From contig NZ_JACVCV010000025.1 of the NCBI RefSeq assembly GCF_017811155.1, forward strand, positions 1-50,173: a DNA stretch of 50,173 nucleotides, read 5' to 3'. The notes beneath the pieces were generated by a model. That model had not been told where the DNA came from and did not search any database. It was given only the letters and a program-made list of their open reading frames with translations. The stretch comes from Lunatimonas salinarum. GTDB lineage: Bacteria > Bacteroidota > Bacteroidia > Cytophagales > Cyclobacteriaceae. This document shows positions 7,269 to 47,301 of the stretch, in pieces (within the stretch, counting starts at the first letter, position 1; each line of letters opens with the position of its first letter). The position numbers were made by a program, and so were the translations under genes.

Positions 7269-7304
7269 GTTATTTTTTTCCACTCCCAATATAAGCAATC
7301 AAAA

Positions 7305-7360: not shown

Positions 7361-7504
7361 CTGCACAATTAAAATCCGCCACTAACTGCCAAAGAATCTA
7401 CTATTATTTCGAAAAGCAAACGCGTGGAAATGGAAACCCTATCTTATTCCAACGGGAATTCCAGCATAATATTCGGTCACCAAGGAACACTTGATTCAGG
7501 TGGA

Positions 7505-8263: not shown

Positions 8264-8416
8264 GGTACTGTTCTTTTTGGTAATAGCCGACCGACCATCA
8301 TAGCAGGAGGCCATGGTATAATCAAAAAAATCAGGAAGGCTGCTTTCCGGAAATCCAGGTGGTGCCGGATGACACGCACAGATCCCGCAAAGCAGGCTTA
8401 CCTGATCGATAGTTGT

Positions 8417-25946: not shown

Positions 25947-25971
25947 GATGATGTTGAATTTATTTTCGCTG

Positions 25972-28470
25972 TCAATATATTAATTGAAATTCGGGCAATA
26001 GAACCAGCGCCCAAAAGAAGTCCTGTACAGCCTCCACCGAAGGAGAATCCCCTAATACTTCTTGGGCAATTCGGTATTCCGACTGTTGGGGATCACGGGC
26101 TAAGAGCTGCCTAAAGACCTCGTGGATCAAAATGTCACCATCGGGGTACTTTTCCTTCCAACGTTCCGCTCCCAGCCGAAGGGCTTCGTTCAGGGTTACA
26201 CCATTGGTAAGCTCCAACGCCTGTAGCAGACTTGCTTGAGAATCCCTATTGGTAGATACGATTTCACGATTCGGCCTTCCCAAGGCTTTTAGGAACTCGT
26301 TATTTTGAACCAAAGAAGCCCGTGGATATTCCAATTTCGCTTGTTCAGAGCTAACAAGCTGATAGGGGTTATACTTGACCTGCTTCTCGTCAAACAAGGG
26401 GTAAATAAAGCTGCTGATGGCATCCGAAAACTGCTCCGCCGTCAACCGTCTACGCACCATTCCTTCAAACACGTAATTTTCATCCGCCAAATCCAAGGGG
26501 TCATCAAAGCTGATGGAAGGCTGTTGATAGGCCTTCGAAGTGGCAATGATCCGTATAAGCCTTTTCAGGTCATACCCATTGTCAGCAAAGTCACTTGCCA
26601 GCCAGTCCAACAGATCCTGACTCCAAGGCTCGTTATCCATTTCGTCCACAGGTTCTACCAATCCGCGGCCCATTAGCTGCTTCCATATTCGGTTCACGAT
26701 GGTACGGTATAGCCGACCGTTGGCAGGCTGTACCAGGTATTCGGAAAGCTGGCGAAGCTTTTCAGCACGGTTTGCAGTACTGTCTATCTCTCCGAGTTCT
26801 TCCCAGAGTAATTTGGTACTGGCCTTTTTTCCGATAGGGGTTTCACAGCGGGCTACTTCCAAGTCCTCTTCGGCAAAGATATTCGCAAAGGCATACGCCT
26901 CTTCCAACTTCCAATCACTGATAAAACTGTCGTGGCAGGAAGCACATTTCAGGTTCAGTCCTAAAATCACCTGCCCCACATTTTGTGCGGCCTGCATTTC
27001 GGTCACTTGACTGGCATTCACGTCGCCTCTCCACCGGATACCCTCAATAAAGCCTTTAGAACTCTCATCCGGATTCAACAATTGCTTCACAAATACATCA
27101 TAGGGTTTATTATCACGCAAAGACGTATACAGCCAGTCGGTGATGGCAAAACGCCCCCTTGTAATGTAACCCGTCCCGGTATAATCATTACGAAGGGCGT
27201 CGTTCCAAAAGGTAAGCCAATGGATCGCGTATTCGTCGTTCTTTGACAGCAGCTCATCTACTATGCGTTCCCGCTTATCTGCTTTCGTATCTGCCAGGAA
27301 TGCCTCATAAGCCTCAGGGCTTGGCAACACTCCCAATACATCCAAGTAAACGCGCCTTAGGTAGGTTTTGTCGTCGATTGGCTGCTTCCACTTGACTGAT
27401 TTTGTCGCGAAGTAATTGTCCACCAATAAGTCTACGGGGCTTTCCAATCCCGCTTTAGGCGCAGGAAGTTTCGGCATGCGCGGGGCTAGTTCTGCTACCC
27501 GGTACACACTTTGGTTTTCTACGGCGTCTGGCCAGGGAGCGCCCTTTTCCACCCATAAGTTGATCACGGCGATCTCTTCTTTGCTAAGGGTTTTCCCCTT
27601 GGATGGCATAGCATCTTCATGGCTTGCCGGTAGCTTGATCCGGCGAATCAGATCACTGGACGACGGATTACCGGGAACAATCACAGGACCAGATTCCCCA
27701 CCTGCAAAGATCGCCTCCTTGCTGTCCAATCTCAGATCACCCTTGATTTTTGCGCTGCTGTGGCAGTTGTAGCAGTTGTGGGCAAAAATTGCCCGAACCT
27801 GCCCCACCAGCTTCACCTGCTTTTCCTCTGAAAGATCCTCCGCTTGATAGGCCACCAGATCAATGTCCATGGCTACTTGAGAATAGCTGCTATCTTCATT
27901 CCATGGCAAAACGCTAGTAAGGTAATCATCCCCGTGTGTTAGCGAAGCCCCAAAATGCCCCGCAAAGGAAACGCCAAAAGCAGCCACAAAAAGAACCGCT
28001 CGATAACCCTTCACCGAAGCAGCATTGAAAGAATCTTCCGTCCTTTTCAGCATGAGGTAAAGTGGAATCCCCAATACCGCGGTTGCAATGCCGGCCCATT
28101 GGTGAATCACCAATGTGTCTCCCCCATAACCTTCTACATTGGCCAATAAGATTCCAAATAGGGTCGATGCGAAGGCCGCAAAGATTCCCCCAAGCACCAA
28201 CATCCGAATGCCGGGACGGAGCTTACTTTGAAAGTTACGCAGTGTAAAAAGCTCCAAAAAAGCCGCAAAGACCAATAAGCTTACGGGAAAGTGAACGACC
28301 ATGGGGTGTAGGCGGCCCAAAAGCTTCCAAAGCCAAAAGGAATCTCCGGATGCCACGGCCCCGTCGTCTGCCCATGCATCGCCAAGTGTGCCAAGGGTAA
28401 CCAAAAAGCCCAAAATGATTATTTTCGGTAGCCCCCGCTTGATGGTTTGGGGGAAAGAAAGGCTGTTCAT
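25972..28470 (-). CDS. PSD1/PSCyt cytochrome protein with DUF2231, DUF1549 and DUF1553 domains
   Basis: An 832-residue exported protein started at the ATG at 28470 (MNSLSFPQTIKRGLPK); the open frame extends 16 codons further but lacks a better signal. After the signal come four membrane helices of DUF2231 type (LHPMVVHFPVSLLVFAAF at about 54-71). A PSCyt1-type heme site CYNCH follows at about 233-237, then a DUF1549 domain with a second CASCH at about 509-513, and a DUF1553 C-terminus (MVRRRLTAEQFSDAISSF). This architecture is best known in planctomycetes and verrucomicrobia, and here it is fused to a membrane anchor. It should pass electrons at the membrane; its substrate is unknown. The DUF1501 partner is encoded 25 bp downstream. 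Confidence 0.87.
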   Translation of the reverse strand: MNSLSFPQTIKRGLPKIIILGFLVTLGTLGDAWADDGAVASGDSFWLWKLLGRLHPMVVHFPVSLLVFAAFLELFTLRNFQSKLRPGIRMLVLGGIFAAFASTLFGILLANVEGYGGDTLVIHQWAGIATAVLGIPLYLMLKRTEDSFNAASVKGYRAVLFVAAFGVSFAGHFGASLTHGDDYLTSVLPWNEDSSYSQVAMDIDLVAYQAEDLSEEKQVKLVGQVRAIFAHNCYNCHSSAKIKGDLRLDSKEAIFAGGESGPVIVPGNPSSSDLIRRIKLPASHEDAMPSKGKTLSKEEIAVINLWVEKGAPWPDAVENQSVYRVAELAPRMPKLPAPKAGLESPVDLLVDNYFATKSVKWKQPIDDKTYLRRVYLDVLGVLPSPEAYEAFLADTKADKRERIVDELLSKNDEYAIHWLTFWNDALRNDYTGTGYITRGRFAITDWLYTSLRDNKPYDVFVKQLLNPDESSKGFIEGIRWRGDVNASQVTEMQAAQNVGQVILGLNLKCASCHDSFISDWKLEEAYAFANIFAEEDLEVARCETPIGKKASTKLLWEELGEIDSTANRAEKLRQLSEYLVQPANGRLYRTIVNRIWKQLMGRGLVEPVDEMDNEPWSQDLLDWLASDFADNGYDLKRLIRIIATSKAYQQPSISFDDPLDLADENYVFEGMVRRRLTAEQFSDAISSFIYPLFDEKQVKYNPYQLVSSEQAKLEYPRASLVQNNEFLKALGRPNREIVSTNRDSQASLLQALELTNGVTLNEALRLGAERWKEKYPDGDILIHEVFRQLLARDPQQSEYRIAQEVLGDSPSVEAVQDFFWALVLLPEFQLIY

Positions 28471-28597
28471 AACTCGCATATACATTTCATTTGGGATTAG
28501 CCCGGAATTTAAAAACAACTCGCAATTTGAAATCGTTTCGCACCCCGACTACCCCCTATTTCTCCTATTTACAATATTATCTATTTTATATGAATAT

Positions 28598-29566: not shown

Positions 29567-30031
29567 ATGAAAAAAATCGAAAGAAGATCAACATTAAAGA
29601 AACTGTTTGCCTCCTTGGCAGGTTTCGCCGGAATCACTACCGTAGCAAACGCCAACTCGGAAACAGCCGCTCCTGAAAAGCAAGCTTTCAACATTGTGGA
29701 AGATCAGGATGTACCCCTTTTCTCAGGAGCTACCAAATTAGGTAACATGGTGTTTATCGCCGGTAAAGGTGCCCACTTCGACGGCGATATCAAGGCACAC
29801 ACCGATCACGTATTGAAAGAACTGGAAAAAGAATTGGTAAAGGCGGGCTCCTCTATGGAGAAGGTCCTGAAAGTAAACGTATACCTGCACGATTTGAATG
29901 ATTACAAAGGAATGAATGAGGTATTCAGAGGCAGGTTTGGCAGCAAGCCTCCTGTACGAACCACAGTAGCTACCTATGGTGGTGTCCCAGGCGACTCTTT
30001 GGTTGAAATGGACTGTATTGCCTATATTTAA
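29567..30031 (+). CDS. Exported RidA-family protein (Tat-type signal)
   Basis: A 154-residue protein: a twin-arginine-like signal (ERRSTLKKLFASLAGFAG at 5-22, cleavage near VANANS) followed by a RidA/YjgF domain of normal length (about 43-154). The conserved active-site Arg is present in KPPVRTTVAT (Arg131). RidA enzymes hydrolyse enamine/imine intermediates released by PLP enzymes, normally in the cytoplasm. A Tat-type export signal is unusual. It is followed by two BASS transporter genes on the same strand, and a second exported RidA lies 17 kb away beside an exported PLP enzyme. Confidence 0.85.
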   Translation: MKKIERRSTLKKLFASLAGFAGITTVANANSETAAPEKQAFNIVEDQDVPLFSGATKLGNMVFIAGKGAHFDGDIKAHTDHVLKELEKELVKAGSSMEKVLKVNVYLHDLNDYKGMNEVFRGRFGSKPPVRTTVATYGGVPGDSLVEMDCIAYI

Positions 30032-30085
30032 TCCTTACGAACACCCCCCTAAACCTAAACAGCCTTGAAAACCCAAAAACTATTT

Positions 30086-31174
30086 ATGGGCCTTTTGATT
30101 GCAGCCCTGCTGTTGTTTCTGATCGCACTTATCTTAATGGCAAGTGGCCAAATCGAATCCACAGGCCCCTTAATGATTGGGTTCTTTGTGCTTCTGGGAG
30201 TTGGGTTTAGGGGGTTTCCCAAGCTAAAAGGATACACCTATACCACCATGATTTTTGCCGGTGTTACCGCTGCCATGTATTACCCACAACCGCTTACCGA
30301 ATACAATGGCTATTCCTTTAGCAAACTGATTACCCCACTCATTCAGATTATCATGTTTGGTATGGGAACCTCCATGTCCATCAGGGATTTCGTAGGTGTG
30401 GCCAAGATGCCCAAAGGGGTTCTTGTAGGGCTGACGTCCCAGCTAACCATCATGCCCCTGCTGGGTTTTGTAATTGCCAGTTTTAGTGCTTTCCCTCCTG
30501 AAATAGCCGCCGGTATCATCCTCATCGGATGTACGCCTTCTGGCCTAGCATCCAATGTGATGAGTTACCTTGCCAAGGCTAATTTGGCCCTCTCCATCAC
30601 CATCACTGCGGTAGCAACGCTATTGGCACCTTTCACCACGCCCTTTCTGATGAAAATGCTGGCAGGCACCTTCATAGCCATCGATGTGTGGGACATGATG
30701 TGGAGCATCGTCAAGATGGTCATCTTCCCGATCGGGGGAGGCTTGCTTTTCAACCGCTTTCTGAGCGGTAGAGCCAAATGGCTGGATGATGCCATGCCCT
30801 TGGTTTCTATGATCGGAATTGGCATCATCATTACCATCATCACTGCTGCAGGCAGAGACAGCTTGCTGGAAATTGGCGGCATTCTGATCGTTTTGGTAAT
30901 GATTCATAACCTAATGGGCTATAATCTTGGTTACTGGGTCAGCCGGTTGCTACGGTTGGATGAAAAAGATTGCCGAACCATTGCCCTGGAAGTCGGCATG
31001 CAAAACGGTGGCCTAGCCTCTGGATTAGCAAATGAAATGGGAAAAGCAGCCACTGTCGGATTGGCTCCGGCAGTTTTCGGACCACTCATGAACATCACCG
31101 GATCCGTATTGGCGTCCTACTGGCACCGGAAACCGCCACTGGAAAAACCCAGCCAAAAAAAGCCCCAGAGATAA
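30086..31174 (+). CDS. BASS-family (bile acid:sodium symporter type) transporter 1
   Basis: A membrane protein of 362 residues from the ATG at 30086, or 369 from a TTG at 30065. About ten helices are visible. Family signatures are FGMGTSMSIRDF, VGVAKMPKGV, GCTPSGLASNVMSYLAKAN (helix-breaking crossover) and LEVGMQNGGLASGLANEMGK. BASS proteins are sodium-coupled importers of organic anions, including bile acids, pantothenate and keto acids. It follows the exported RidA gene by about 55 bp and is directly followed by a second copy, so the three genes form one unit. A keto acid made in the periplasm would be a logical substrate, but that is inference. Confidence 0.85.
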   Translation: MGLLIAALLLFLIALILMASGQIESTGPLMIGFFVLLGVGFRGFPKLKGYTYTTMIFAGVTAAMYYPQPLTEYNGYSFSKLITPLIQIIMFGMGTSMSIRDFVGVAKMPKGVLVGLTSQLTIMPLLGFVIASFSAFPPEIAAGIILIGCTPSGLASNVMSYLAKANLALSITITAVATLLAPFTTPFLMKMLAGTFIAIDVWDMMWSIVKMVIFPIGGGLLFNRFLSGRAKWLDDAMPLVSMIGIGIIITIITAAGRDSLLEIGGILIVLVMIHNLMGYNLGYWVSRLLRLDEKDCRTIALEVGMQNGGLASGLANEMGKAATVGLAPAVFGPLMNITGSVLASYWHRKPPLEKPSQKKPQR

Positions 31175-31177
31175 TCC

Positions 31178-32266
31178 GTGAGAAATCAGCGTATTTTTGC
31201 GTACCTCTCGGGGTTGTCAGCTGCGGCACTGCTACTAACTATCCTTCCCCTGTCATTGATTTCCTTCGACCATCGAGGCCCCTCGCTAATTTTTGCGCTA
31301 TGTTGCCTGGGTATGGCCTTTCACCACCATGAAAGGCTGAAAGGATATGTCTATACCCTGATGATACTGGCCGCCGCTGCCTTGGCCTTGCTTTATCCCC
31401 AGCCCTTTGTCGTCTACAATGGCTACCAATTAAACCAGCTTATCATACCCATGCTCCAATTTATCATGTTTGGCATGGGGTCATCTATGACGGTACAGGA
31501 TTTTGTTGGCGTGGCTAAAATGCCCAAAGGAGTTGCCATTGGGCTTGCTTGCCAACTAAGCCTAATGCCACTTTCTGGATTTTTGATTGCCAAGTGGAGC
31601 AGTATGCCCCCGGAAATCGCCGCTGGCATCATCTTGGTGGGTTGCTCGCCCAGTGGCGTAGCCTCCAATGTGATTAGCTACCTAGCCAAGGCCAACCTGG
31701 CACTTTCCATCACACTAACGGCCGTTTCCACGCTTTTAGCCCCCTTTACCACACCGCTACTGATGAAATTGCTCGCCGGAGAGTTTGTCTCCATACAGGT
31801 TTCTGAGATGATGTGGACCATTTTCAAACTGGTCATTTTCCCCGTAGTGGGAGGATTGGCATTTAACCATCTTATGCGCAACCATGCAGCTTGGATACAA
31901 CGCATCATGCCCACTGCCTCCATGGTGGTTATTGCCTGCGTGATTATCCTAATCACCGCATCGGGAAGGGACAATTTTCTGGCTCTCGGAGCTGCCCTGA
32001 CTTTTTGGGTGCTGCTGCACAATGCACTTGGATACAACTTAGGCTACTTCACTGCAAGGCTTTTTGGACTAGCCGAGAGAGACTGCCGAACCATCGCCTT
32101 GGAGGTGGGGCTTCAAAATGGAGGCATGGCAGGTGGATTAGCCAAAGAAATGGGCAAATTGGCTACCGTGGGACTGGCTCCTGCCATTTTTAGCGTACTC
32201 CAAAATATCACCGGTTCCGTACTTGCTTCGCATTGGCACCGTAGGCCCCCCAAGGTCACCGGCTAA
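31178..32266 (+). CDS. BASS-family transporter 2
   Basis: A 362-residue membrane protein starting with GTG at 31178, only 3 bp after the stop of the first BASS gene. The two are clear tandem paralogues, sharing QFIMFGMGSSMTVQDFVGVA, GCSPSGVASNVISYLAKANL and LEVGLQNGGMAGGLAKEMGK with small changes. They differ most in the first two helices and the C-terminal tail. Both keep the substrate/sodium crossover regions, so both may be active, either with different substrates or as partners. The stop lies 11 bp inside the oppositely oriented FG-GAP gene. Confidence 0.85.
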   Translation: MRNQRIFAYLSGLSAAALLLTILPLSLISFDHRGPSLIFALCCLGMAFHHHERLKGYVYTLMILAAAALALLYPQPFVVYNGYQLNQLIIPMLQFIMFGMGSSMTVQDFVGVAKMPKGVAIGLACQLSLMPLSGFLIAKWSSMPPEIAAGIILVGCSPSGVASNVISYLAKANLALSITLTAVSTLLAPFTTPLLMKLLAGEFVSIQVSEMMWTIFKLVIFPVVGGLAFNHLMRNHAAWIQRIMPTASMVVIACVIILITASGRDNFLALGAALTFWVLLHNALGYNLGYFTARLFGLAERDCRTIALEVGLQNGGMAGGLAKEMGKLATVGLAPAIFSVLQNITGSVLASHWHRRPPKVTG

Positions 32267-35655: not shown

Positions 35656-37275
35656 TTACGGTTTGGCATCCCACCAGAGTTTGGTGGAGTTTCTATTTCC
35701 TCCTCGGGACGTAAGCTCTGGCAGTTGCTCTGCTGCCTCTACCGCAGAGCGGTTATTGTTGTATTCACCCTCTACAAAGATCAACCTAGGCATTACTTGA
35801 TCCCTTGGCACATCTACGTTATCAGATGCCACCCTAGGGAAATGCCGAGGATACTTGGTTCTTCTCAATTCAGTCCAAGCTTCCCATCCATCGGGGTATA
35901 GCGCAAGCCACTTTTGGGTAATAATCTGCTCCAGCTGCTTCTCCTTGGTACCTGCTGTTAAGAAAGCAACCGGGATATCAGAAGAAGCTGGCAGGTTCCA
36001 ATCTGGTCTCGCAGCATAGGTAACCGGCGCGGGGGTATTTGTACGGGAGATATAGTCTTGTACTTGCTCTGGTGTTGCACCGATTCGCTCTTCGGTCATG
36101 GACATTTCGATGCCTTTTTCGTAGAGGTCTTTGGCAGTTCCGCCCATATTCCAACCTTCCAAAGCACCCTCTGCTCGCAAGAAGAACACTTCCGCTGCAC
36201 TGATCATTCTAAATCTTGGACCGAAAGGCAAGCCACCGCGTCCTGCATTCAACCATCTGACTCCCATATCAGAGTGAGCCCTATTAAGTGCACCCTGATC
36301 CAAATCAGCCCTAGGTAATCCATTTCGAACACCCTTGTATTCCTCTCCAGATTCGTCTTCCACAAAGTCTACTGTTGGACTGAAATAAACACCCATACGG
36401 GGATCATCGTATCCTTTAAGCACACTCTCCATCAAGGCACTCATTCTGAACTCGCCCCAGTTGGTAATGGTCCAGTAAGGATGGCGGGAATTGGTGGTTG
36501 TCAAAACAGAGGCACTATTTTCATTTGTCATGATCACCCCGTCATTAATGGCCTTCTCTGCCTCAGTCCTTGCTAGTGCAGGTTCTACGTACTTCACCCG
36601 CATGGCCAGTCTCAACCGCAACGAATTGGCAAATAGAAGCCACTGATTCACATTGCCTCCATACACCTGGTCGTGTGCCAAGAACGCCGTACCTCCGGCA
36701 TTTGCCTTTAATACAGTAACCGCAGCGTCGAGCTCCTGGAAGAAACTTTTGTAGATATCCTCTTGTGAATCATACGGCACGGTGGTCTCTCCGTTTCCAA
36801 AATTAGAATAGATGATAGGACCCCAATAATCTGTGATTCTGTGATATGCATAAACCTTTAACACCTTTGCAAAAGCATTCTCCAAGGGAAGATTATTTGC
36901 AGCGGTAAACTTTTCCACAAAGTCGATAACCGGAGCGGCCTGCTGATAGAAAGAATTCCAAGCGCCGTTCGACCAGCCGCCTACTTGAGTATGCCTGTCT
37001 GAATCGAAGTTTGTGGCCGTATTGGCAAAGTATTGGGAATAAATATCCGCAAACAAACTTTGCGCTAATTGGAATCCACCCGGACCCGCCGTGCCTGGCA
37101 CACCGTACATGGTTCTCCACTGTGCGTTGGCAAATGCCTGACCCAATAAGCCCAGATCCAAATTATCTGCAAGAATAACGTCGGGACGGGTATTTAGCTC
37201 TTCAAAATTTTCTGTACAGCCCAGAAACAAACCGGCTGCCAAAGAAAATCCGAGTATATTTTTTATCAATTTCAT
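35656..37275 (-). CDS. SusD-like outer-membrane lipoprotein, pair 3 (distinct subfamily)
   Basis: A 539-residue lipoprotein with lipobox GLFLGC (Cys20), then TENFEELNTRPDVILADNLD. The pattern (NANQWLLFANSLRLRLAMRV-like helix at about 204-222, EVFFLRAEGALEGW, QKWLALYPDGWEAWTELRRT) is that of the SusD-like subfamily different from classic RagB/SusD proteins. It would bind the ligand of the SusC protein encoded 12 bp upstream. This subfamily is often found away from polysaccharide loci, so the ligand may be a small molecule or peptide rather than a glycan. A strong terminator follows. Confidence 0.88.
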   Translation of the reverse strand: MKLIKNILGFSLAAGLFLGCTENFEELNTRPDVILADNLDLGLLGQAFANAQWRTMYGVPGTAGPGGFQLAQSLFADIYSQYFANTATNFDSDRHTQVGGWSNGAWNSFYQQAAPVIDFVEKFTAANNLPLENAFAKVLKVYAYHRITDYWGPIIYSNFGNGETTVPYDSQEDIYKSFFQELDAAVTVLKANAGGTAFLAHDQVYGGNVNQWLLFANSLRLRLAMRVKYVEPALARTEAEKAINDGVIMTNENSASVLTTTNSRHPYWTITNWGEFRMSALMESVLKGYDDPRMGVYFSPTVDFVEDESGEEYKGVRNGLPRADLDQGALNRAHSDMGVRWLNAGRGGLPFGPRFRMISAAEVFFLRAEGALEGWNMGGTAKDLYEKGIEMSMTEERIGATPEQVQDYISRTNTPAPVTYAARPDWNLPASSDIPVAFLTAGTKEKQLEQIITQKWLALYPDGWEAWTELRRTKYPRHFPRVASDNVDVPRDQVMPRLIFVEGEYNNNRSAVEAAEQLPELTSRGGNRNSTKLWWDAKP

Positions 37276-37287
37276 AGTTTACAAATT

Positions 37288-40200
37288 TTAGAATCCAAGA
37301 TTAACGTTGAAACCAAAGGATCTAGCAGTAGGGGGTGCAAAGGAGTCAAAACCCTGCGCGGCCGTACCAGTACCTACAGTCACGTCCGGATCAATATTAC
37401 CGGCCCTATTCAGCAGGAAGAATAAGTTACGGGCTACGAAGTTCACACTAGCCGTTCTTATGGGCAGCCTTTCTAATTTGCTCGCTGGGATGTTGTAGCC
37501 GATAACCGCTTCACGCATCCTTACGTTAGTAGCAGATACCGAGAACACCTCACCGATAGGTGCGTTTCGTCCACCCATCTGTACCCAAAATTGCTCTGCA
37601 GTAATCGGAATATTATTGGGTTCGCCCGTTTCTAACACGGCAGTTTCATGCTCCATAAAGTTCTGTCCGAAGATCAACCCGCCCTCGCGACCTTGCAAGG
37701 TCTCCTCGGTCAAACCATCCGCATAAATAATGGCGTTTGTAAGAGAAGCAATGGATCCACCCTGACGGAAGTCGATAGTAAAGTTAGCTCGGAAGTTCTT
37801 ATACTTGAAGTTATTCTGAATACCGCCCAACCAGATTGGATTGTAGTTGGCTACCCGTACAGTAAAGCCGGGAGTAGTTCTAGGGATACCGTTAGAACCA
37901 ACAATTACCCTCCCCTGCTCGTCTCTCAAATAACCTCTGGAATACACCTCACCAAACATCGCACCTTCCTCTACAAAGAATCGACGAAGGAAATCCCCTC
38001 CAACTTCCACACGAGGACGCTGATCGTTGATGGAGTTAACCATGGATATGTTTCGCGCAAAGTTAGCGGTGATATTCCATTCAAAATCCGCCCGTTTGAT
38101 TGGGTTCAAGGTAATCACTGTTTCGATACCCTCGTTTTGAACATCCCCTCCGTTGGTAAAGAACTGAGAGGCACCGGAACCCACGGGAAGGCCTACCGTA
38201 AACAACTGATTAAACGAGTTGGTCTTGTAGTAGGTGAAATCAATACCTAGTTTGTTGTCAAACAATCGCACATCAGCACCCAATTCAATCGACTGGGTTG
38301 TTTCCGGAAGCAAGTTGGCATTTGGCAAAGTAGTATTAAGCCTCAGGTAACCTGCACGTCCTCCCGGATCTAAAAATGCCTGTCTTTGAAGCTGGAAAGG
38401 GCTAGTATCATTACCTACCTCTGCAAACGAACCCCTTACTTTGGCGAAGGTCAACCAAGTAGGAAGTTCTACCAAGTCAGAAATAACTGCATTTAACCCT
38501 ACAGAGGGATAAAAAAACGACCAGTTGTCTCTAGGAAGCGTGGAACTCCAGTCATTTCTGGCGGTAATGTCCAAGAAAACCGCATTTTTCCAGGAGATTT
38601 GGCTAAAGCCGTAAAGAGAGTTTACATCTCTAGGAGCACCTACCCCGTAAGTAGAAGCTACCAACTGCGTGTTGCTCAATGCAAAGAAGTTTGGAACCAC
38701 CAAGTTGGGTCCGGTATTGGAACTTAGAGTCGTATTTCGGTTCTTCCGTGCGTTTCCACCTACGTTGACATTAAAGTACCAATCTTGATTCAAACTCTTT
38801 TCGTAAGAAACCAGGAAATCCGTATTGATTTCCATGGATTCGCCAAAACCTACACCATACCTACCATCTTGGGCAATGATATAGGTATCATTATATATTG
38901 CATCCTCATTGGTTGTAAATGAACGGTCTACAGCTGCCCTCGCCAACACGGTAAGCCCCTCGGTGATGTCATACGTCAGGGAGGTTAAGCCAATCATCCG
39001 GTCCAGGGTATTTTTAAACAGGTTTCTGTTGACGGTCCAGTAGGGATTCATACCACCGTTTGAGCCGGGATTGAAATAGTTTTGTCTCAGAAGTCCTGCG
39101 GCATTCGTATACTCAAATTGGTTAAGATCCTCTGTTCGGATATTTCGGGGAATACGGTAAGCATTTCGGATTGGGTTGGCAAAATCCTCCCCTTGCCTCA
39201 AAAGCTGATCAATATCCTGACGGATATAGTTCAACTTAGAATCCAAGGTCAACTTATCTGTGAGCTTATTGGTCAGACGCAGGTTAATACTATGACGCTT
39301 CAGCTCGTTGCCAGGCACTACCCCAGCTGCGTCTGCAAAGGTATACGAAAAGTAGGTTTGGTTCTTTTCGCCACCGCCTGTAACAGACAGCGTGTACGCT
39401 CGGTTGTGCCCGGTCTGAAAGAAATCCCTCACGTTGTTAGGCTGTGGGGAAAATGGGTAAGTAGTGCCTTCCTTTCCTTCTACCCTAGACCATTGTGCCA
39501 CTTGGGAACCATCCAGCCGGGGACCCCAAGAAAACTCAGAAGCAGGAGAGTAAGCTCCACCGGAACCCTGTCCATACAAATTCTGATAGTTCGTCATCAG
39601 GATGGGATTGTCAAACATGATGCTGGTGTTGAAATTCACCGCAAAACCTTGCTTTCCTCGCTTGGTATTCACCACGATCGCTCCGTTGTTTGCCCGGCTA
39701 CCGTAAAGTGCGGCAGCGTTTGGCCCCTTCAATACGTTGATACTTTCGATATCATCGGGGTTCAAATTTTCGATGCCGGAAGCAGGCACACCATCTACGA
39801 TATAAAGGGGCTGCGAATCACCACTGATGGAGCGGTTACCTCTTAAAATAACCCTGGTAGGAGAACCCACCCCAGAACCGGAACGGTTAATGGATAACCC
39901 CGCTACTTTTCCGGAAAGAGAGTTCATTACATTCAGTTCTCTGGCCTCGGTAAGTTCCCTGGTGCCCACATCTTGAACGGTATAGGTAAGGGCCTTCTTT
40001 TCCCGTTCCAATCCGAATGCTGTCACTACCACTTCTCCAAGGGCTGTTTCTTCCGCCTTAAGAGCTACATTGATCACGTTCGAATTGCCGATGGTCATTT
40101 CTTGCCGGGTGTAACCCAAATAAGAAAACACCAAGGTAGTACTCGAAGAAGGAACGCTGATACTATACCTTCCGTCGATATCGGTAATGGTACCCGTATT

Positions 40201-40344
40201 CGTCCCCTTTACAAGTACACTGACACCCGGCAAGGGTGCGGCGGCATCAGCGTCAGTCACCGTTCCGGTAACTGTCCTCTCCTGTGCAAAGGCATATATG
40301 CCTGTAAACAGCAGCAGAAGAAAAGCGAGTAAACTTTTTTTCAT
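37288..40344 (-). CDS. SusC/RagA-family TonB-dependent receptor, pair 3
   Basis: A 1018-residue receptor. A signal ending YAFAQ is followed by a carboxypeptidase-like domain (VTGTVTDADAAAPLPGVSVL, TDIDGRYSISV) and the TonB-box variant EVVVTAFGLEREKKAL, which marks a different SusC branch from pairs 1 and 2. The plug is standard (PLYIVDGVPASGIENLNPDD, ALYGSRANNGAIVVNTKRG) and the barrel ends FGFNVNLGF. Its promoter region lacks the CCTGTACT element of pairs 1 and 2, so it is probably under separate control. It may supply the exported enzymes encoded to the right. Confidence 0.94.
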   Translation of the reverse strand: MKKSLLAFLLLLFTGIYAFAQERTVTGTVTDADAAAPLPGVSVLVKGTNTGTITDIDGRYSISVPSSSTTLVFSYLGYTRQEMTIGNSNVINVALKAEETALGEVVVTAFGLEREKKALTYTVQDVGTRELTEARELNVMNSLSGKVAGLSINRSGSGVGSPTRVILRGNRSISGDSQPLYIVDGVPASGIENLNPDDIESINVLKGPNAAALYGSRANNGAIVVNTKRGKQGFAVNFNTSIMFDNPILMTNYQNLYGQGSGGAYSPASEFSWGPRLDGSQVAQWSRVEGKEGTTYPFSPQPNNVRDFFQTGHNRAYTLSVTGGGEKNQTYFSYTFADAAGVVPGNELKRHSINLRLTNKLTDKLTLDSKLNYIRQDIDQLLRQGEDFANPIRNAYRIPRNIRTEDLNQFEYTNAAGLLRQNYFNPGSNGGMNPYWTVNRNLFKNTLDRMIGLTSLTYDITEGLTVLARAAVDRSFTTNEDAIYNDTYIIAQDGRYGVGFGESMEINTDFLVSYEKSLNQDWYFNVNVGGNARKNRNTTLSSNTGPNLVVPNFFALSNTQLVASTYGVGAPRDVNSLYGFSQISWKNAVFLDITARNDWSSTLPRDNWSFFYPSVGLNAVISDLVELPTWLTFAKVRGSFAEVGNDTSPFQLQRQAFLDPGGRAGYLRLNTTLPNANLLPETTQSIELGADVRLFDNKLGIDFTYYKTNSFNQLFTVGLPVGSGASQFFTNGGDVQNEGIETVITLNPIKRADFEWNITANFARNISMVNSINDQRPRVEVGGDFLRRFFVEEGAMFGEVYSRGYLRDEQGRVIVGSNGIPRTTPGFTVRVANYNPIWLGGIQNNFKYKNFRANFTIDFRQGGSIASLTNAIIYADGLTEETLQGREGGLIFGQNFMEHETAVLETGEPNNIPITAEQFWVQMGGRNAPIGEVFSVSATNVRMREAVIGYNIPASKLERLPIRTASVNFVARNLFFLLNRAGNIDPDVTVGTGTAAQGFDSFAPPTARSFGFNVNLGF

Positions 40345-40824: not shown

Positions 40825-42093
40825 TCAAAACATTTCCCGAAGGGCTAAAAATCCTGTATACGATATTAATAAGGAAAAAATAAATGCTGCCCCCAACCCC
40901 AAATTAAGCCACCCTCCGGCCCGGTGGGCCCGCATCAAATCTGCACGATTCACCAAGTAAAAGATACAGGCTATTACGACAGGCAAGATAAAAACCGCGG
41001 CTACCTGTGTGAGAATCTGCGCCAGTATCGGGTTGGCTCCCAATATTGGCACGGTAAGCCCTACTATACAAGCAATGCCGGTCAACACCCGAAAGCGAGT
41101 AGAAGTGGTATCCAAAACCCCCTCTTTGTAATCTGCCACCAGCAAAGGAGCAACCATGAGAATCGGAAAAACCGAAGAAAGCCCGGCACTCAGTGCTCCG
41201 GTCATAAAGATCGCCACGGCAAACTTACCTGCTATGGGCTCCAAGGTATAGACCATATCCATCACCTTTTCAATGGTCTTCCCCTCTACAAACAAAGACC
41301 CCGCAGCGGCAGCCATAATCGCCAGGTTTATCAACAGCATCAAAGAAGCTGATAATAAGGCATCTTTGGACTGTTCTTTGGTATGCAGCTCATTCCAGCC
41401 CTTTCCCTTCATCAACAGCGGCCTCACCACAAAGGTGGGCGCTGCCATCGTAGTCCCAACAAATGCCGCGACCAACAGCTTGCCCCCAGGCACCGACGGA
41501 ATACTGGGCTTTAGCCCTTTTGCGATATCAAGCGGATCCGGTAAGACCACGAACATGGAAATGATAAAGGATATTCCCATCAGCGTCACAAACACGATGA
41601 GCACTTTTTCAAAAAATGAATATTGTCCCACCCAGAGAAACCCATACATTACAACGACCAAAAAAACAGCGATACCCAATACAGCCCAATAATTTTGCGC
41701 AGGGAGGCCCGGGAAAAAGAGAACTGCCACCTCATAGAGTGCATTCGCACTCAGCCCCAATATCCCCGAAAGGGAATTCCACTGAGCAATGATGATTCCA
41801 ACTACCACCAGGATGGCTATCCATTTGCCACCTCTTATCTTTGTTTTGAAACTATAAATGGAGGTGCTCCCCGTGACGATCGCATACCGCCCATAGGCTT
41901 CCATGAGCGTCCACGAAAAAAAACAACTCAGCACCAGGACCCACAACAGCTCCATGCCGAACTGGCTTCCGGCCTTGGCCATGGAAGTAACGCTGCCCGT
42001 GCCTACCGTATAGCCAATACAAAAAATCCCCGGCCCAATGCTGAGCATCCATAGCCATATGCGACCCAAAAAGGTGTGATTCTTATCGTTCAT
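40825..42093 (-). CDS. Nramp-related transporter lacking the metal motifs
   Basis: A 422-residue membrane protein with about eleven helices and the Nramp/LeuT-like fold pattern (GPGIFCIGYTVGTGSVTSMA at 20-39, YGFLWVGQYSFFEKVLIVF, FMTGALSAGLSSVFPILMVA). The two motifs that bind metal in Nramp proteins are gone. DPGN in helix 1 aligns with GTGS (31-34), and MPHN in helix 6 aligns with AAPT (217-220). It should therefore not be read as a manganese/iron importer; it may carry another cation or an organic substrate. It is divergent from the amidohydrolase operon and upstream of susCD pair 3, which ties it to the same locus. Confidence 0.75.
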   Translation of the reverse strand: MNDKNHTFLGRIWLWMLSIGPGIFCIGYTVGTGSVTSMAKAGSQFGMELLWVLVLSCFFSWTLMEAYGRYAIVTGSTSIYSFKTKIRGGKWIAILVVVGIIIAQWNSLSGILGLSANALYEVAVLFFPGLPAQNYWAVLGIAVFLVVVMYGFLWVGQYSFFEKVLIVFVTLMGISFIISMFVVLPDPLDIAKGLKPSIPSVPGGKLLVAAFVGTTMAAPTFVVRPLLMKGKGWNELHTKEQSKDALLSASLMLLINLAIMAAAAGSLFVEGKTIEKVMDMVYTLEPIAGKFAVAIFMTGALSAGLSSVFPILMVAPLLVADYKEGVLDTTSTRFRVLTGIACIVGLTVPILGANPILAQILTQVAAVFILPVVIACIFYLVNRADLMRAHRAGGWLNLGLGAAFIFSLLISYTGFLALREMF

Positions 42094-42350: not shown

Positions 42351-43649
42351 ATGAACAGAAAAAACAACCATTCAGGCACCACTGCAAGGGCAGTGCTGCA
42401 ATACGTAGGCACCTGTGCCATCCTGCTTTTGTTGGAATTGACGGCCTATGCCCAAGACATCGATCTGCTTCTTAAGGGCGGCCACGTAATCGATCCCAAA
42501 AACAACATCGATGCGGTGATGGACGTGGCCATATCCAATCGGAAAATCCACCGGGTCGCCCCCAATATCCCTGCAGCTGAGGCCAAAAAGGTCATAGACG
42601 TATCCGGCCTGTATGTCACGCCTGGTCTGGTGGACATGCACGTACACGTCTTTCATGGCACGGAGCCGCTATCCTATATTGCCGATGGCCATACGAGTCT
42701 GCCGCCGGACGGATTTACCTTCCGATCAGGGGTAACCACGGTAGTGGATGCCGGTTCCTCCGGCTGGCGTAATTTTCGGCAGTTTAAGCAGCAGACCATA
42801 GATCGCTCCCAAACCAGGATTTTGGCTTTTTTGAATATCGTGGGCACAGGCATGTATGGTCGCTTCGAGGAGCAGGATGTGTCCGACATGAATCCTACCA
42901 TGACCTCCCATATGATTACCCGGCTCTTTCCAGACCTGATTGTCGGCATCAAATCTGCTCATTACTGGGGTGGCTTCACCCAGGTGGATTTGGCCGTAGA
43001 AGCCGGGAATCTCGCCCAAGTTCCCGTGATGGTAGACTTTGGCGAACATCAGCCGCCAAACTCCATCGAAGACCTATTTATGAAGCACCTCAGACCTGGG
43101 GACATTTTTACACACACTTATTCCTACGGTCCGGCCAACAGGGAAACGGTCGTAGACGAAAACCTGAAAGTGAAACCCTTTATCTTTGAAGCCCAAAAAC
43201 GGGGAATCCTGTTCGATGTAGGGCATGGAGGCGGCGCTTTTTCCTTCCGTCAAGCCATTCCTTCCCTGCAACAGGGTTTCTTCCCCGACGTGATCAGCTC
43301 AGATCTTCACAAGGACAGCATGAACGGAGCATTTAAAGACATGTGCAACCTCCTGTCCAAATTTATGGCCATGGGTATGTCCCTGCAGGAGGTGATTCAC
43401 CGCTCCACTTGGAGACCCGCCCAGGTGATCTCACGCCCTAAATTGGGGAACCTAGATGTGGGAGCAGAAGCGGACGTTGCCGTATTTCGGTTAAGAGAGG
43501 GCGATTTTGGGTTTATGGACATCCGAAGAATGAAAATTGATGGAGACAAACGCCTGGAGGCCGAGTTGACCTTACGTGCGGGTCGCATTGTATGGGACCT
43601 GAACGGCATCAGCGCTCCCTACTGGGAAACGGAACTTGGCAATGAATAA
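42351..43649 (+). CDS. Exported amidohydrolase 1 (dihydroorotase/deacetylase-like)
   Basis: A 432-residue enzyme from the ATG at 42351 (MNRKNNHSGTTARAVLQ); an in-frame TTG at 42336 is less likely. A signal peptide ends TAYAQ. The amidohydrolase metal set is complete: HVH (97-99), the carbamylated-type Lys201 in VGIKSAHY, His233, His255 in GDIFTHTY and Asp318 in ISSDLH. FDVGHGGGAFSF (288-299) places it with the EF_0837-like amidohydrolase/deacetylase group. It should cleave an N-acyl or cyclic amide bond, but in the periplasm. It is followed 18 bp later by a paralogue and then by a SelA-like gene, the same pairing known for cytoplasmic members. Confidence 0.88.
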   Translation: MNRKNNHSGTTARAVLQYVGTCAILLLLELTAYAQDIDLLLKGGHVIDPKNNIDAVMDVAISNRKIHRVAPNIPAAEAKKVIDVSGLYVTPGLVDMHVHVFHGTEPLSYIADGHTSLPPDGFTFRSGVTTVVDAGSSGWRNFRQFKQQTIDRSQTRILAFLNIVGTGMYGRFEEQDVSDMNPTMTSHMITRLFPDLIVGIKSAHYWGGFTQVDLAVEAGNLAQVPVMVDFGEHQPPNSIEDLFMKHLRPGDIFTHTYSYGPANRETVVDENLKVKPFIFEAQKRGILFDVGHGGGAFSFRQAIPSLQQGFFPDVISSDLHKDSMNGAFKDMCNLLSKFMAMGMSLQEVIHRSTWRPAQVISRPKLGNLDVGAEADVAVFRLREGDFGFMDIRRMKIDGDKRLEAELTLRAGRIVWDLNGISAPYWETELGNE

Positions 43650-43667
43650 CCAAAAACCACACAAATC

Positions 43668-44915
43668 ATGAGGTGGAATCTGGATTTTTACATAGCATCC
43701 ATTCTCTGGCTTCTTTGCCTCGCAGTCCCGATGGGCGTAAAAAGTCAATCCTATGACCTGGTCATCAAAAACGGTCACCTATATGACGCAAAAAACCGGA
43801 TAAACCAACCCATGGATCTTGCCATTAAAGGCGGAAAAATCGCAAAAGTTGCCCCCAAAATACCTGCCGGAGATGGAAAAAAGGCAATTGACGCCACCGG
43901 GCTTTGGATCAGTCCGGGATTTATCGATCCCCATACGCACGTATTTGTCGGGGAAAACCCACGAGTCTTTGCAGGAGGTTCGTCCAGTGTATTCCCCGAT
44001 GCCTTCTCCTTTCGGTCCGGGGTCACCACCGTAGTGGATGCAGGCACTTCCGGGTGGCGGAATTTCGAGGATTTTAAGACCTCCGTCATTGATGTGGCTC
44101 AGACCCGCGTGTTGGCCTTTCTAAACATCGCCGGTGGAGGAATGAGTGGAGACCCTTTCCAGCAGGACATACAAGACATGAATCCCGAAATGACCTTTAA
44201 CATGATCCAAAAATACCCTGACCTGATGGTTGGGGTAAAAATCGGCCATTACGAAGGAAAAAGCTGGCAGCCGTTTGATCTTGCCATTGAGGCGGCCACG
44301 CTGGCCAAACGTCCACTGCTTGTGGAATGCCACCTGCCGGAATACAGCCTAGAAGATCAACTCAAACGGATGAGGCCGGGGGATTTGCTGACCCACACCT
44401 ACGAAAACATTCGCGACCGAAGCCCCGTCGTAGACGAGCAGGGAAATCTTCGCCCCGAAGTACTGGAGGCCAAACACCGGGGAGTGCTCTTTGACCTAAG
44501 CCATGGAGGCGCGGGCTTTTGGTTTGATCAAGCGGTGCCGGCCATCCAACAAGGGTTGACTCCAGATACCTTTGGCACCGATTTGCACCGATTTAGTATG
44601 AATTCCGGCATGAAAAACTTCGCCAATGTGCTCTCCAAGTTCCTCGCTCTGGGGATGGGGCTGGAAGAAGTATTGGAAAAAGCTACCTGGGGAACCGCGA
44701 AAGCCCTCCTGCGGGAGGATTTGGGACACCTCAGCGAAGGCACCGTTGCAGACTTGACGCTTATCCGCATTCGGGAAGGATCTTTTGGATTTGTGGATTC
44801 AGGCGGAGTGCGCATTACAGGAAACAAACTCATTGAGCCCGAACTCACCATTCGGGCAGGCCGCATTGTATATGACTTAAACGGACTTTCGGCCTCACCC
44901 TTTAAATTCGATTAA
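43668..44915 (+). CDS. Exported amidohydrolase 2, paralogue of amidohydrolase 1
   Basis: A 415-residue enzyme with a signal peptide (MRWNLDFYIASILWLLCLAV, cleavage near VKSQ). The catalytic residues are again complete: HTH (89-91), Lys191 in VGVKIGHY, His222, His243 in GDLLTHTY and Asp305 in FGTDLH. It shares most motifs with amidohydrolase 1 (SGVTTVVDAG, GWRNF, RAGRIVYDLNG) but differs in loops after HxH and around the third His, so the two copies probably differ in substrate. It lies between amidohydrolase 1 and the SelA-like gene, with 18- and 5-bp gaps, in one operon. Confidence 0.88.
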   Translation: MRWNLDFYIASILWLLCLAVPMGVKSQSYDLVIKNGHLYDAKNRINQPMDLAIKGGKIAKVAPKIPAGDGKKAIDATGLWISPGFIDPHTHVFVGENPRVFAGGSSSVFPDAFSFRSGVTTVVDAGTSGWRNFEDFKTSVIDVAQTRVLAFLNIAGGGMSGDPFQQDIQDMNPEMTFNMIQKYPDLMVGVKIGHYEGKSWQPFDLAIEAATLAKRPLLVECHLPEYSLEDQLKRMRPGDLLTHTYENIRDRSPVVDEQGNLRPEVLEAKHRGVLFDLSHGGAGFWFDQAVPAIQQGLTPDTFGTDLHRFSMNSGMKNFANVLSKFLALGMGLEEVLEKATWGTAKALLREDLGHLSEGTVADLTLIRIREGSFGFVDSGGVRITGNKLIEPELTIRAGRIVYDLNGLSASPFKFD

Positions 44916-44920
44916 CTAAC

Positions 44921-46528
44921 ATGGATAGAAGAGAAGTAATCAAAGGATTGGCCATGCTGCCCATTGGGGGCAGTTTTATGTCTATGGCAGAAGCAGGCCA
45001 GCAGCGGGAAAACGGTCCGCTCGCATTAAACGAAGACATCTACGGCTCCATCGGTGTAGACACCATTATCAACTGCCGGGGTACATTCACCATCATCGGC
45101 GGATCAAGGGAGCGCCCGGAGGTATTGGATGCCATGAAAGCAGCGGCAGGCAACTTCATCCAGTATGATGAGCTGGCTGCGGGCATAGGGCAGCGCCTAG
45201 CAGATATCACCAAAGCCGAATGGGGCATCATCACAGCCGGTTGTGCGGCCGCAATGAAACACGCCACCGTGGCCTGTGTCACCGGGGGCAATCCGGAAAT
45301 ATTGATGAAGGTGCCGTTTCTGGACGATGTGCCAAAAAACGAGGTCATCATCCCGCGCCACTCACGAAACGTCTATGATGCCTCTATCCGAAACGTAGGC
45401 GTAAAAATAATCGAGGTCAATACCCCGGAAGAGCTGGAAGAAGCCATCAACCCGCGCACCGCGATGATCTACCTAATGACCAACAATGCCTCCGACACAG
45501 GCAAACCGCTTTCGCTAGAGAATATCGCCAGGATTGCCAAACCCAAAAACATCCCCGTACTCGTGGATGCGGCAGCGGAAGACCTCACGATTCCCGTAGT
45601 CCATTTCGAACGGGGCGCAACCATGGTGGCCTACAGCGGCGGCAAAGCCATCTGTGGCCCACAGTGTGCCGGACTCTTGTTGGGACAAAAGGACATTTTG
45701 CTTTCAGCTTGGCAGGCATCATCCCCCCACCATGGACCAGGAAGGGACAACAAGGTCGGCAAAGAAGAAATGATGGGCATGCTCGCCGCCGTCGAAGCTT
45801 GGACTACGCGAAACCACCCCCAAGAATGGGACAATTGGATGAAATGGCTGGGTCAGATTTCCGATGCCGTCACCAAAGTAAAAGGGGTAACGACCCAAAT
45901 CCAGGAGCCTACTGGGCTCAACAACCGAGCCCCAACCCTGCACATCATGTGGGACCCCGCGGCGCTGCACATTACGGGCCCCGAAATGGCGGAGTACTTG
46001 GGCAGAAACAAGCCACGAATTGCTGTGGGAGGCAGAGACAATGGCTCCGAAAGGACCTTGCTGACCGTGACCCCCAGTCAGATGATTGCCGCCGAAGTCC
46101 CCGTCGTGGCCAATCGCATCCAAGAGGTGCTGAAAATGAAACGGCAGCCCAAGAAAGGAATGGCGGCACCTACCGGAAGCATGGCTGGCCGTTGGACCGT
46201 GGTGGTTCAATATTCCAGCAGCCAAACCACCCATCAGTGGTTTTTAGAGCAGGACGAAAACTGGCTGGCTGGCAGACATGAAAGCGACTTTGCCACCCAG
46301 GATATCATAGGTACCATGGATGGAAAAACGGTCAAGCTGCATTCTACCTTCCGAGAACCAGGAAAAAGTGTTCCTTTTATGTTTTCGGGCACCTTGGAAG
46401 GCAATACCCTCACCGGCAATATCCACCTAGGAGAGTACCAGAATGCCAAATTTACAGCCACCAAACAGGACTATCAGGCACCGCGAAGGAACATCCTCAT
46501 TCCCGATGGACCGCCGTTGGCGACCTAA
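44921..46528 (+). CDS. Exported SelA-like PLP-dependent enzyme with C-terminal beta domain
   Basis: A 535-residue protein with a Tat-type signal (MDRREVIKGLAMLPIGGSFM, cleavage near AEAGQ). Residues about 38-405 form a fold-type I PLP enzyme of the SelA-like group: AGCAAAMKHATVACVTGG (106-123), the PLP-holding Asp216 in VLVDAAAED and the Schiff-base Lys242 in YSGGKAICGPQCAG. Characterised relatives include D-glucosaminate-6-phosphate ammonia-lyase. Residues about 418-535 are an added beta-rich domain (GRWTVVVQYSSSQTTHQWF, FSGTLEGNTLTGNIHLGEYQ) not usual in this family. Tat export would let the PLP cofactor be loaded before export. Elimination of an amine exposed by the amidohydrolases is the likely reaction. 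Confidence 0.82.
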   Translation: MDRREVIKGLAMLPIGGSFMSMAEAGQQRENGPLALNEDIYGSIGVDTIINCRGTFTIIGGSRERPEVLDAMKAAAGNFIQYDELAAGIGQRLADITKAEWGIITAGCAAAMKHATVACVTGGNPEILMKVPFLDDVPKNEVIIPRHSRNVYDASIRNVGVKIIEVNTPEELEEAINPRTAMIYLMTNNASDTGKPLSLENIARIAKPKNIPVLVDAAAEDLTIPVVHFERGATMVAYSGGKAICGPQCAGLLLGQKDILLSAWQASSPHHGPGRDNKVGKEEMMGMLAAVEAWTTRNHPQEWDNWMKWLGQISDAVTKVKGVTTQIQEPTGLNNRAPTLHIMWDPAALHITGPEMAEYLGRNKPRIAVGGRDNGSERTLLTVTPSQMIAAEVPVVANRIQEVLKMKRQPKKGMAAPTGSMAGRWTVVVQYSSSQTTHQWFLEQDENWLAGRHESDFATQDIIGTMDGKTVKLHSTFREPGKSVPFMFSGTLEGNTLTGNIHLGEYQNAKFTATKQDYQAPRRNILIPDGPPLAT

Positions 46529-46637
46529 TCCCCCTACACCCCAGCTACCCGGCACTTGCAAAATGTCAGGAGTTGGGGTAACTTTCCGCTTCAAAAAATG
46601 CTCAATATCTAACTTGCAACTAACCACGAACGTCACG

Positions 46638-47210
46638 ATGAAAAAAGCATTGCTTACACTCCTTGTACCCATGCTGCTATCCGTAGGGTGCAGCTCTGAA
46701 AAAACCGAAACCGCCGATCAAAAGCCCGTCGCTTCCCTAAATGATGGCGTGGATGCCGAAGCCAATCTTAAGAACCTGGGGATTACCCTCATCATGCCAA
46801 ATGCACCTACTGCCAATTACCTAAAGGCGAAACGATCTGGGAATCTAGTATACTTAGCGGGGCATGGACCAGACCGCCCCGACGGTACCCAGGTAATCGG
46901 CAGGCTTGGTGAGGACTTGGACATAGACGCCGGCTACGAAGCAGCTAGGTTTACCGGTATTTCCTTACTCTCCTCTCTCAAAGCGGAAATCGGGGATCTG
47001 AACAAGGTAAAGAGTATCGTTCGTGCGCAGGGCATGGTGAATGCTGATGCAGGCTTCAAAAACCATTCCCAAGTTATCAACGGGTTTTCAGATCTGATGG
47101 TAGAGGTATTTGGGGAAAAAGGCAAACATGCGAGGGCCGCTATTGGTATGAGTTCCCTTCCCAACAACATTGCCGTCGAGATTGATATGATCGTGGAAGT
47201 TGAGGATTGA
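46638..47210 (+). CDS. RidA-family lipoprotein
   Basis: A 190-residue lipoprotein from the ATG at 46638 (MKKALLTLLVPMLLSVGC, lipobox SVGC). A longer open frame exists upstream, but it overlaps the end of the SelA-like gene and hides the signal. The RidA domain spans about 44-190 with NLVYLAGHGPDRPDG and the active-site Arg166 in KHARAAIGMSSLP. RidA proteins hydrolyse the enamine/imine released by PLP ammonia-lyases. Its position 110 bp after an exported PLP enzyme and its own membrane anchor fit exactly this task in the periplasm. A strong terminator follows, ending the operon. Confidence 0.88.
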   Translation: MKKALLTLLVPMLLSVGCSSEKTETADQKPVASLNDGVDAEANLKNLGITLIMPNAPTANYLKAKRSGNLVYLAGHGPDRPDGTQVIGRLGEDLDIDAGYEAARFTGISLLSSLKAEIGDLNKVKSIVRAQGMVNADAGFKNHSQVINGFSDLMVEVFGEKGKHARAAIGMSSLPNNIAVEIDMIVEVED

Positions 47211-47268
47211 GCATTCCCCACGCAACTTGGGGAAAACAATCGCTACACCGCTTCGATCATGATAAAGG

Positions 47269-47301
47269 AAGAGGCTGCCCATTTCGGACAGCCTCTTTTT
47301 G
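47269..47301 (+). terminator. Rho-independent terminator of the amidohydrolase operon
   Basis: Perfect 9-bp arms AAGAGGCTG/CAGCCTCTT with an 11-nt loop and a T-run (CTTTTTGC). It lies 59 bp past the stop of the RidA lipoprotein gene. The following ~190 bp hold no gene I can support. Confidence 0.92.

Follow-up and report, generated by a model that had tools for sequence, protein, structure and literature searches.

A four-gene set with export-type N-termini in Lunatimonas salinarum: a candidate extracytoplasmic counterpart of the cytoplasmic Ong pathway

Bacteria are generally assumed to deaminate amino acids and amino sugars in the cytoplasm, because pyridoxal 5′-phosphate (PLP) is made there and because the reactive enamines formed need Rid proteins. 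A stretch of 50,173 nucleotides from Lunatimonas salinarum (contig NZ_JACVCV010000025.1, hereafter the window) holds four genes, for two amidohydrolases, a SelA-like PLP enzyme and a Rid lipoprotein, that may carry out such chemistry outside the cytoplasm. The closest described logic is that of the Ong pathway of Pseudoalteromonas prydzensis in which, according to PMC9537276, N-acetylglucosaminate (GlcNAc1A) is deacetylated and glucosaminate (GlcN1A) is deaminated to 2-keto-3-deoxygluconate (KDG), the Rid protein OngD being essential in a role that is unknown. OngB is D-aminoacylase-like and OngC belongs to fold type III (PMC9537276, with PMC12017989 for OngB), and both were predicted to be cytoplasmic by the Ong authors. 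An earlier note on the present DNA knew of no described pathway of this kind. This stands for an exported version, since neither an exported SelA-like ammonia-lyase nor an exported Rid pathway was found among open-access titles and the first lines of abstracts, a scope that mostly excludes the subscription literature, but it does not stand for the logic itself: the cytoplasmic succession of deacetylase, PLP deaminase and Rid protein was already known from Ong, and only its exported version would be new here.

The window set is best read as an exported, non-homologous counterpart of the Ong pathway, which would probably serve the extracytoplasmic deacylation, ammonia elimination and Rid hydrolysis of N-acyl-2-amino-3-hydroxy acids, N-acetylhexosaminates being the probable substrates. 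It is not an Ong locus, as it shows neither the D-aminoacylase type of OngB, nor the fold type III of OngC, nor, judging by the N-termini, their predicted cytoplasmic character. As the earlier note had stated, the four genes are adjacent; they lie head to tail on the forward strand at 42351–47210. The first two encode exported-type amidohydrolases predicted to be N-deacylases, AH1 (42351–43649) and its paralogue AH2 (43668–44915), followed by a SelA/DgaE-like PLP enzyme, a predicted ammonia-lyase (44921–46528), and a Rid-family lipoprotein, a predicted enamine/imine deaminase (46638–47210). The gaps between them are 18, 5 and 109 nt. The longest open reading frame (ORF) of the Rid gene begins at 46443, the lipoprotein start being the ATG at 46638. 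A hairpin with a T run at 47269–47297 (+), noticed on inspection of the sequence, is a probable terminator closing the set; its stem also appears in the terminator listing of the window, but on the other strand, and that listing (9 candidates versus a shuffled mean of 7.8) is within chance. The genes, their families, their exported-type N-termini, an intact PLP lysine and a recurrent linkage can be read directly. From these we infer the localisation, the reactions, the order of steps and the substrate, and the interpretation given in the earlier note is supported.

Export is suggested by the N-termini, which were judged by simple hydropathy and motif rules and not by SignalP. By these rules the signal peptides previously claimed for all four proteins are present: AH1 and AH2 have Sec-type starts (hydrophobic core with a mean of 2.7 across 10 residues), the PLP enzyme has a twin-arginine start (MDRREVIKGLAMLPIGGS) and the Rid protein has a lipobox, LSVG-C, of the lipoprotein type. 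TatC is encoded once in the L. salinarum genome, so that the PLP enzyme combines the signal and the translocase gene expected for a putative Tat substrate. Among 80 PLP genes of the window type, the 79 that start inside their contig were counted; the control consisted of the remaining ORFs at these loci, 640 in number after 53 of 693 running off the contig had been dropped. The Tat-like test was passed by 65 of the 79 genes versus 79 of the 640 control ORFs, and either the Sec or the Tat test by 60 of 73 amidohydrolases versus 316 of the 640. Export tests were passed by 24 of 25 Rid proteins of two gene clusters, and 52 Rid N-termini near PLP genes look exported by eye (ORFs of at least 260 residues left out). 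RraA-like proteins were Sec-like in 7 of 7 cases (control 269 of 640).

The twin-arginine starts of the PLP genes are kept across Bacteroidota and Acidobacteriota. When both types of PLP gene are taken together, a twin-arginine pair precedes the domain in 121 of 131 aligned rows, or in 119 once two matches found to be false by eye (L075 and L084_18035) are removed. The remaining 12 comprise two rows that lack the N-terminus (L096, L106), one with the pair in another frame (L065), two from L084 with RK and seven with no signal. At about 9900 in L065, the twin-arginine start and the remainder of the PLP gene stand in different frames, reflecting a frameshift in the gene or in the assembly.

The chemistry of the nearest solved PLP enzyme, DGL, gives the Rid protein a plausible role. 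According to PMC9529869, His163 of DGL protonates C-3 and the wild type releases an imine; only the H163A mutant, which retains most of the activity (kcat 20 versus 27 per s), releases an enamine. The earlier assertion that SelA-like ammonia-lyases release enamines for Rid proteins is therefore true of the mutant but not of wild-type DGL. In the window enzyme, the His162/His163 columns of DGL hold N and A, the alignment of this loop being uncertain; of 131 rows, 6 have His at one of the two columns and none has the pair, and a loss of the pair in the window enzyme alone was rejected, as the aligned relatives lack it too. Given that H163A DGL releases the enamine, a PLP enzyme without this histidine could use a Rid partner, and it is the missing histidines that give Rid its place in the proposed pathway.

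The earlier note would have been refuted by an active site unable to bind PLP, of which the sequence gives no sign: the PLP-binding lysine (Lys242) and Asp216 are conserved in 130 of 130 aligned relatives. An AlphaFold2 model (pLDDT 89, residues 1–28 below 50) found DGL (7lc0) and Cap15 (8t7j) as nearest solved folds in a Foldseek search of the pdb, then SelA. The enzyme scores 158.7 bits against TIGR01437 (cut-off 385.3) and 141.7 bits against NF047797 (cut-off 600), and thus does not reach the scores of the curated DgaE/DGL ammonia-lyase families. It gives no match to PF03841 (SelA) at E 0.001, while two paralogues of the same genome score 33.5 and 30.3, over the gathering threshold of 22.8. 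The phosphate arginines of DGL (Arg301/332/346) are replaced by T, G and S. The possibility of an ordinary DgaE orthologue with a 6-phosphate substrate was rejected on account of the sub-cut-off scores, the lost phosphate arginines and the export-type start. Residues 423–515 (46187–46465) form a C-terminal all-beta domain, which is absent from the two shorter paralogues of the same genome.

AH1 (449.6 bits) and AH2 (394.2 bits) both exceed the cut-off of 371 for NF006689 (PRK09237). In solved amidohydrolase relatives, the metal ligands are presumably HxH, K, H, H and D; AH1 shows HxH, K, D, H and D at these places. Across the aligned family, HxH, the beta-6 His and the beta-8 Asp are found in 98 of 98 rows, and K in 91. 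The beta-5 place follows the paralogue, with Asp in 44/44 sequences of the AH1 type and 25/25 of the type found in contig C11, and Glu in 27/27 of the AH2 type. The Rid protein is over the cut-offs of PF14588 (58.4 bits) and PF01042 (37.9 bits). Aligned with the Rid1 proteins PA0814 and ACIAD3089, it keeps the Arg common to both; its HARAAxG motif also occurs in PA0814, with which the R of HARAAIG, which we take to be Arg-105, and the E of VEID align. Its scores and the conserved Arg and Glu place it with the Rid imine deaminases that have a catalytic Arg, deamination being its putative activity. In the text searched of two papers on Rid proteins, the words periplasm and signal peptide are absent from PMC4433059, and periplasm and signal from PMC5619798.

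Gene linkage was followed in three sets of relatives: an even phylum sample of 395 genomes, where all matches from the seven positives other than the own genome gave 9 loci; a family sample of 11 loci from 9 genomes, hand-picked from 44 matches; and the best 80 of 572 confirmed relatives in a scan of named genomes, many on short contigs. Neighbours within 8 kb of the PLP gene were counted by BLAST with one or few seeds each, so that all counts are lower bounds, and the family names were verified on single representatives. SelA-like relatives at E 1e-30 occur in 8 of the 395 genomes, own included; the trait is therefore rare and patchy. Among 59 genomes (own included, 37 from the same family), 23 have a match at E 0.001, several of them weak and partial. 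The nearest named relative, a Lunatimonas metagenome-assembled genome, has a PLP protein 96% identical and an identical gene order.

The linkage whose absence would have refuted the earlier note is conserved in Bacteroidota, and it also occurs in some Acidobacteriota. An amidohydrolase lies near the PLP gene in 8/9 phylum, 8/11 family and 40/80 named loci, and a Rid gene of any type in 8/9, 7/11 and 24/80. From the density of Rid genes in the own genome, about 0.02 would be expected in a stretch of 18 kb, and the binomial tails for 9, 11 and 80 loci are 2e-13, 4e-10 and 9e-22 (relatedness is ignored and loci with several PLP genes exceed 18 kb). Chance adjacency is rejected by these linkage counts. 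The whole chain had been equated with the four genes; all four are present, but in relatives the chain is longer through its neighbours. A GSDH sugar dehydrogenase is found in 6/9 phylum, 5/11 family and 18/80 named loci, an SMP-30 lactonase in 7/9, 2/11 and 7/80, an RraA-like gene in 4/9, 1/11 and 9/80, and a BASS transporter in 5/9, 1/11 and 7/80. Among the 80 named loci only, a PF10282 lactonase occurs in 4, a DgoT-like transporter of the major facilitator superfamily (MFS) in 5, a 2-keto-3-deoxy-6-phosphogluconate (KDPG) aldolase in 4 and DgoK in 2. For example, the PLP gene of L065 stands beside DgoK (PF05035), KDPG aldolase and the DgoT-like transporter (TIGR00893, 255.5 bits, cut-off 395), and that of L061 also beside KDPG aldolase and an MFS gene.

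These genes suggest a mechanism in which an exported sugar dehydrogenase and lactonase would make N-acetylhexosaminate, the most likely substrate. AH1 and AH2 would take the acyl group off the N-acyl-2-amino-3-hydroxy acid, and the PLP enzyme, folded with its cofactor and then exported by Tat, would eliminate the C-3 hydroxyl and release an enamine. Exported Rid proteins would hydrolyse the latter to ammonia and 2-keto-3-deoxyaldonate, to be taken up or split by an exported RraA-like aldolase to give pyruvate, which a BASS-type symporter would import. To judge by their families, GSDH proteins use pyrroloquinoline quinone (PQQ), and keto acids are the cargo of BASS proteins and the substrates that RraA-like proteins cleave. 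The GSDH, lactonase, KDPG aldolase, DgoK and transporter genes near relatives fit a route with N-acetylhexosaminates in and 2-keto-3-deoxyaldonates out. Its fullest form, a phosphate-free extracytoplasmic route from N-acetylhexosamines to pyruvate (dehydrogenase–cytochrome c, lactonase, deacetylase, PLP lyase, Rid, RraA-like aldolase, sodium-coupled uptake), with the electrons of the dehydrogenase passing to respiration, can be offered tentatively and is doubtful as a whole.

Several observations weigh against exported deacylation, elimination and Rid hydrolysis of amino-sugar acids. The Sec-or-Tat test says little alone because so many control ORFs pass it too, and seven PLP rows carry no signal (L059, L064, L075, L082, L083, L103 and L070_1032). 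Amidohydrolases are missing within 8 kb in 40/80 named loci and Rid genes in 56/80, many of these contigs being short, and Rid is likewise missing in 4/11 family loci. The 19.5 kb examined around the third SelA-like gene of the own genome (C89, L005) hold no AH or Rid homologue, and the sugar dehydrogenase and lactonase genes do not lie beside the window set itself. The AH family does not show the full ligand set of its solved relatives: where 2ogj and 8je0 have their beta-5 His, Asp stands in 70 and Glu in 28 of 98 rows, and His in none. The loop of the DGL His pair is hypervariable among relatives, and another proton donor may therefore serve. Of 87 neighbours without a label, 27 were scanned, together with two window genes and the DgoK of L065, and no chitinase or hexosaminidase was found among them, the own genome not having been searched for chitinases or lytic polysaccharide monooxygenases; chitin as the source is thus not supported. 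GH32 was found among the same 27 neighbours. The lack of a glycan enzyme pointing to the source likewise counts against the reading.

An exported O2-dependent PLP oxidase, resembling Cap15 or PvdN, could oxidise the N-deacylated amino acid, with Rid removing the imine. The fold of Cap15 is as near as that of DGL (TM by target 0.87 and 0.85), a further point against elimination; Cap15 uses O2 on a beta-hydroxy-alpha-amino acid (PMC6384614 and PMC7497351), and reference titles in PMC7497351 place PvdN among periplasmic PLP oxidases. The sequence score nevertheless favours DGL over Cap15 (107.7 versus 86 bits), and elimination would yield a 2-keto-3-deoxy acid, which suits the KDPG aldolase, DgoK and galactonate-type transporter present at a few loci, so that the oxidase appears unlikely. 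It appears just as unlikely that the same exported chemistry acts on N-acyl-D-serine, N-acyl-D-threonine or another D-amino acid, for instance from cell-wall peptides. No sugar oxidase stands beside the window set, and D-Ser and D-Thr are further substrates of the Ong deaminase (PMC9537276); yet a sugar dehydrogenase or lactonase lies within 8 kb in 7/9, 6/11 and 24/80 loci, and DgoK or KDPG aldolase is present in a few. That the N-termini export none or only some of the proteins, leaving a cytoplasmic or split pathway, is very improbable: prediction by simple rules, half of the control ORFs passing the Sec or Tat rule, and six signal-less relatives of the window type, by which a working enzyme inside the cell seems feasible, are outweighed by the export-type signals of the four adjacent genes, which are of three kinds, by the conservation of twin-arginine starts in two phyla and by a TatC in the own genome.

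These six relatives (L059, L064, L075, L082, L083, L103) come from Chloroflexota (3), Gemmatimonadota (2) and Latescibacterota (1). They form one clade (SH-aLRT 99) nested within signal-bearing rows, in a quick tree with long outgroups, DGL included, from which the long row L070_1032 was left out; the signal was therefore probably lost a single time. Members of the clade are presumably cytoplasmic. At the six loci, one of which spans only 3.3 kb, no homologue of the AH or Rid proteins was found.

The own genome (5.46 Mb, 166 contigs) contains three SelA-like genes, located in the window, C11 and C89. The C11 row (L004) comprises GSDH–cytochrome c, CBM9, Rid, PLP and amidohydrolase genes; the gene in C89 adjoins a sulfatase and is near a 3-keto-disaccharide hydrolase. 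All three matches of the AH family at E 1e-10 adjoin SelA-like genes. Export-type N-termini are found in three of six Rid genes (two in the window, one in C11), the others (L137, L138, L142) being signal-less. The genome further encodes two KDPG-type aldolases and three RraA-like proteins with Sec-like N-termini by eye, all away from the four-gene set. It also has four matches to SMP-30, of which the one on C155 is the closest (55%) and carries one in-frame TGA; the others reach 32–36%.

Elsewhere in the window, at 29567–30031 (+), lies another Rid gene, absent from the earlier note, whose product has a Tat-type N-terminus (PF01042, 67.1 bits, over cut-off); most Rid genes close to PLP genes in relatives belong to this type. 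It is followed by two BASS/PanS-like sodium symporter genes (30065–32266, +; TIGR00841 and NF047939, below cut-offs), candidate importers that may transport keto acids. Upstream of the four-gene set and divergent from it, profile matches identify a SusD and SusC outer-membrane uptake pair (35656–40344, −) and an NRAMP-like transporter (40825–42093, −); the window order including the latter is kept in 4 of 80 named loci (L034–L037). Beside the Tat-type Rid and BASS genes, 24519–28518 (−) encodes a DUF1501 protein and a PSCyt1/PSCyt2/DUF1553 cytochrome-type protein, a pair also present in L118 about 3 kb from a Rid gene and perhaps an alternative dehydrogenase. A GFO/IDH/MocA oxidoreductase, a xylose-isomerase-like protein and a 3-keto-disaccharide hydrolase at 2588–8314 (−) resemble a 3-keto-sugar route, and a HipA-like kinase gene lies at 21894–23123 (+). 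In relatives, the loci L068, L091 and L094 each hold an array that combines three PLP genes with five or six for amidohydrolases, which looks as if a cassette had been duplicated, and L133 has three PQQ_2 beta-propeller genes (5530–9582) beside its PLP/Rid/amidohydrolase set.

If the proposed pathway is correct, some bacteria have relocated the whole deamination step to the outside: the PLP enzyme would receive its cofactor before it passes through Tat, and Rid proteins would be exported with it. A function would thereby be assigned to the SelA-like and Rid genes with export signals described above. The pathway would imply that cytoplasmic PLP enzymes can be shielded from toxic enamines, and it would offer a second system for asking why the Ong pathway needs OngD. 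To our knowledge, no PLP eliminase and no Rid enzyme has so far been described as exported, so that these would be the first; the full route, if true, would amount to a periplasmic amino-sugar Entner–Doudoroff pathway.

Compared with known systems, the PLP enzyme is nearest to DGL in sequence and fold and shares its catalytic lysine and Asp, but it lacks the His162/163 pair and the phosphate arginines and has a Tat-type N-terminus and an extra C-terminal beta domain. Cap15, a PLP monooxygenase-decarboxylase not known to have an export signal or a Rid partner, has the same SelA-like fold and a beta-hydroxy-alpha-amino acid as substrate, but serves antibiotic biosynthesis. PvdN of Pseudomonas is exported by Tat, but acts in siderophore maturation and not in catabolism, and we know of no exported Rid partner for it. 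It is likewise a fold type I PLP enzyme and, by the reference titles in PMC7497351, periplasmic. The Rid lipoprotein resembles the Rid1 subfamily (PA0814 and ACIAD3089; PMC5619798) in sequence and in the aligned Arg, and PA0814 in HARAAxG. With Ong, the window set would have in common N-acetylaldonate deacetylation, PLP-dependent deamination to KDG, a Rid protein and TonB-dependent outer-membrane uptake; it differs in its NF006689 amidohydrolases, its fold type I SelA-like enzyme, its export-type N-termini and the sugar dehydrogenase and lactonase genes near its relatives.

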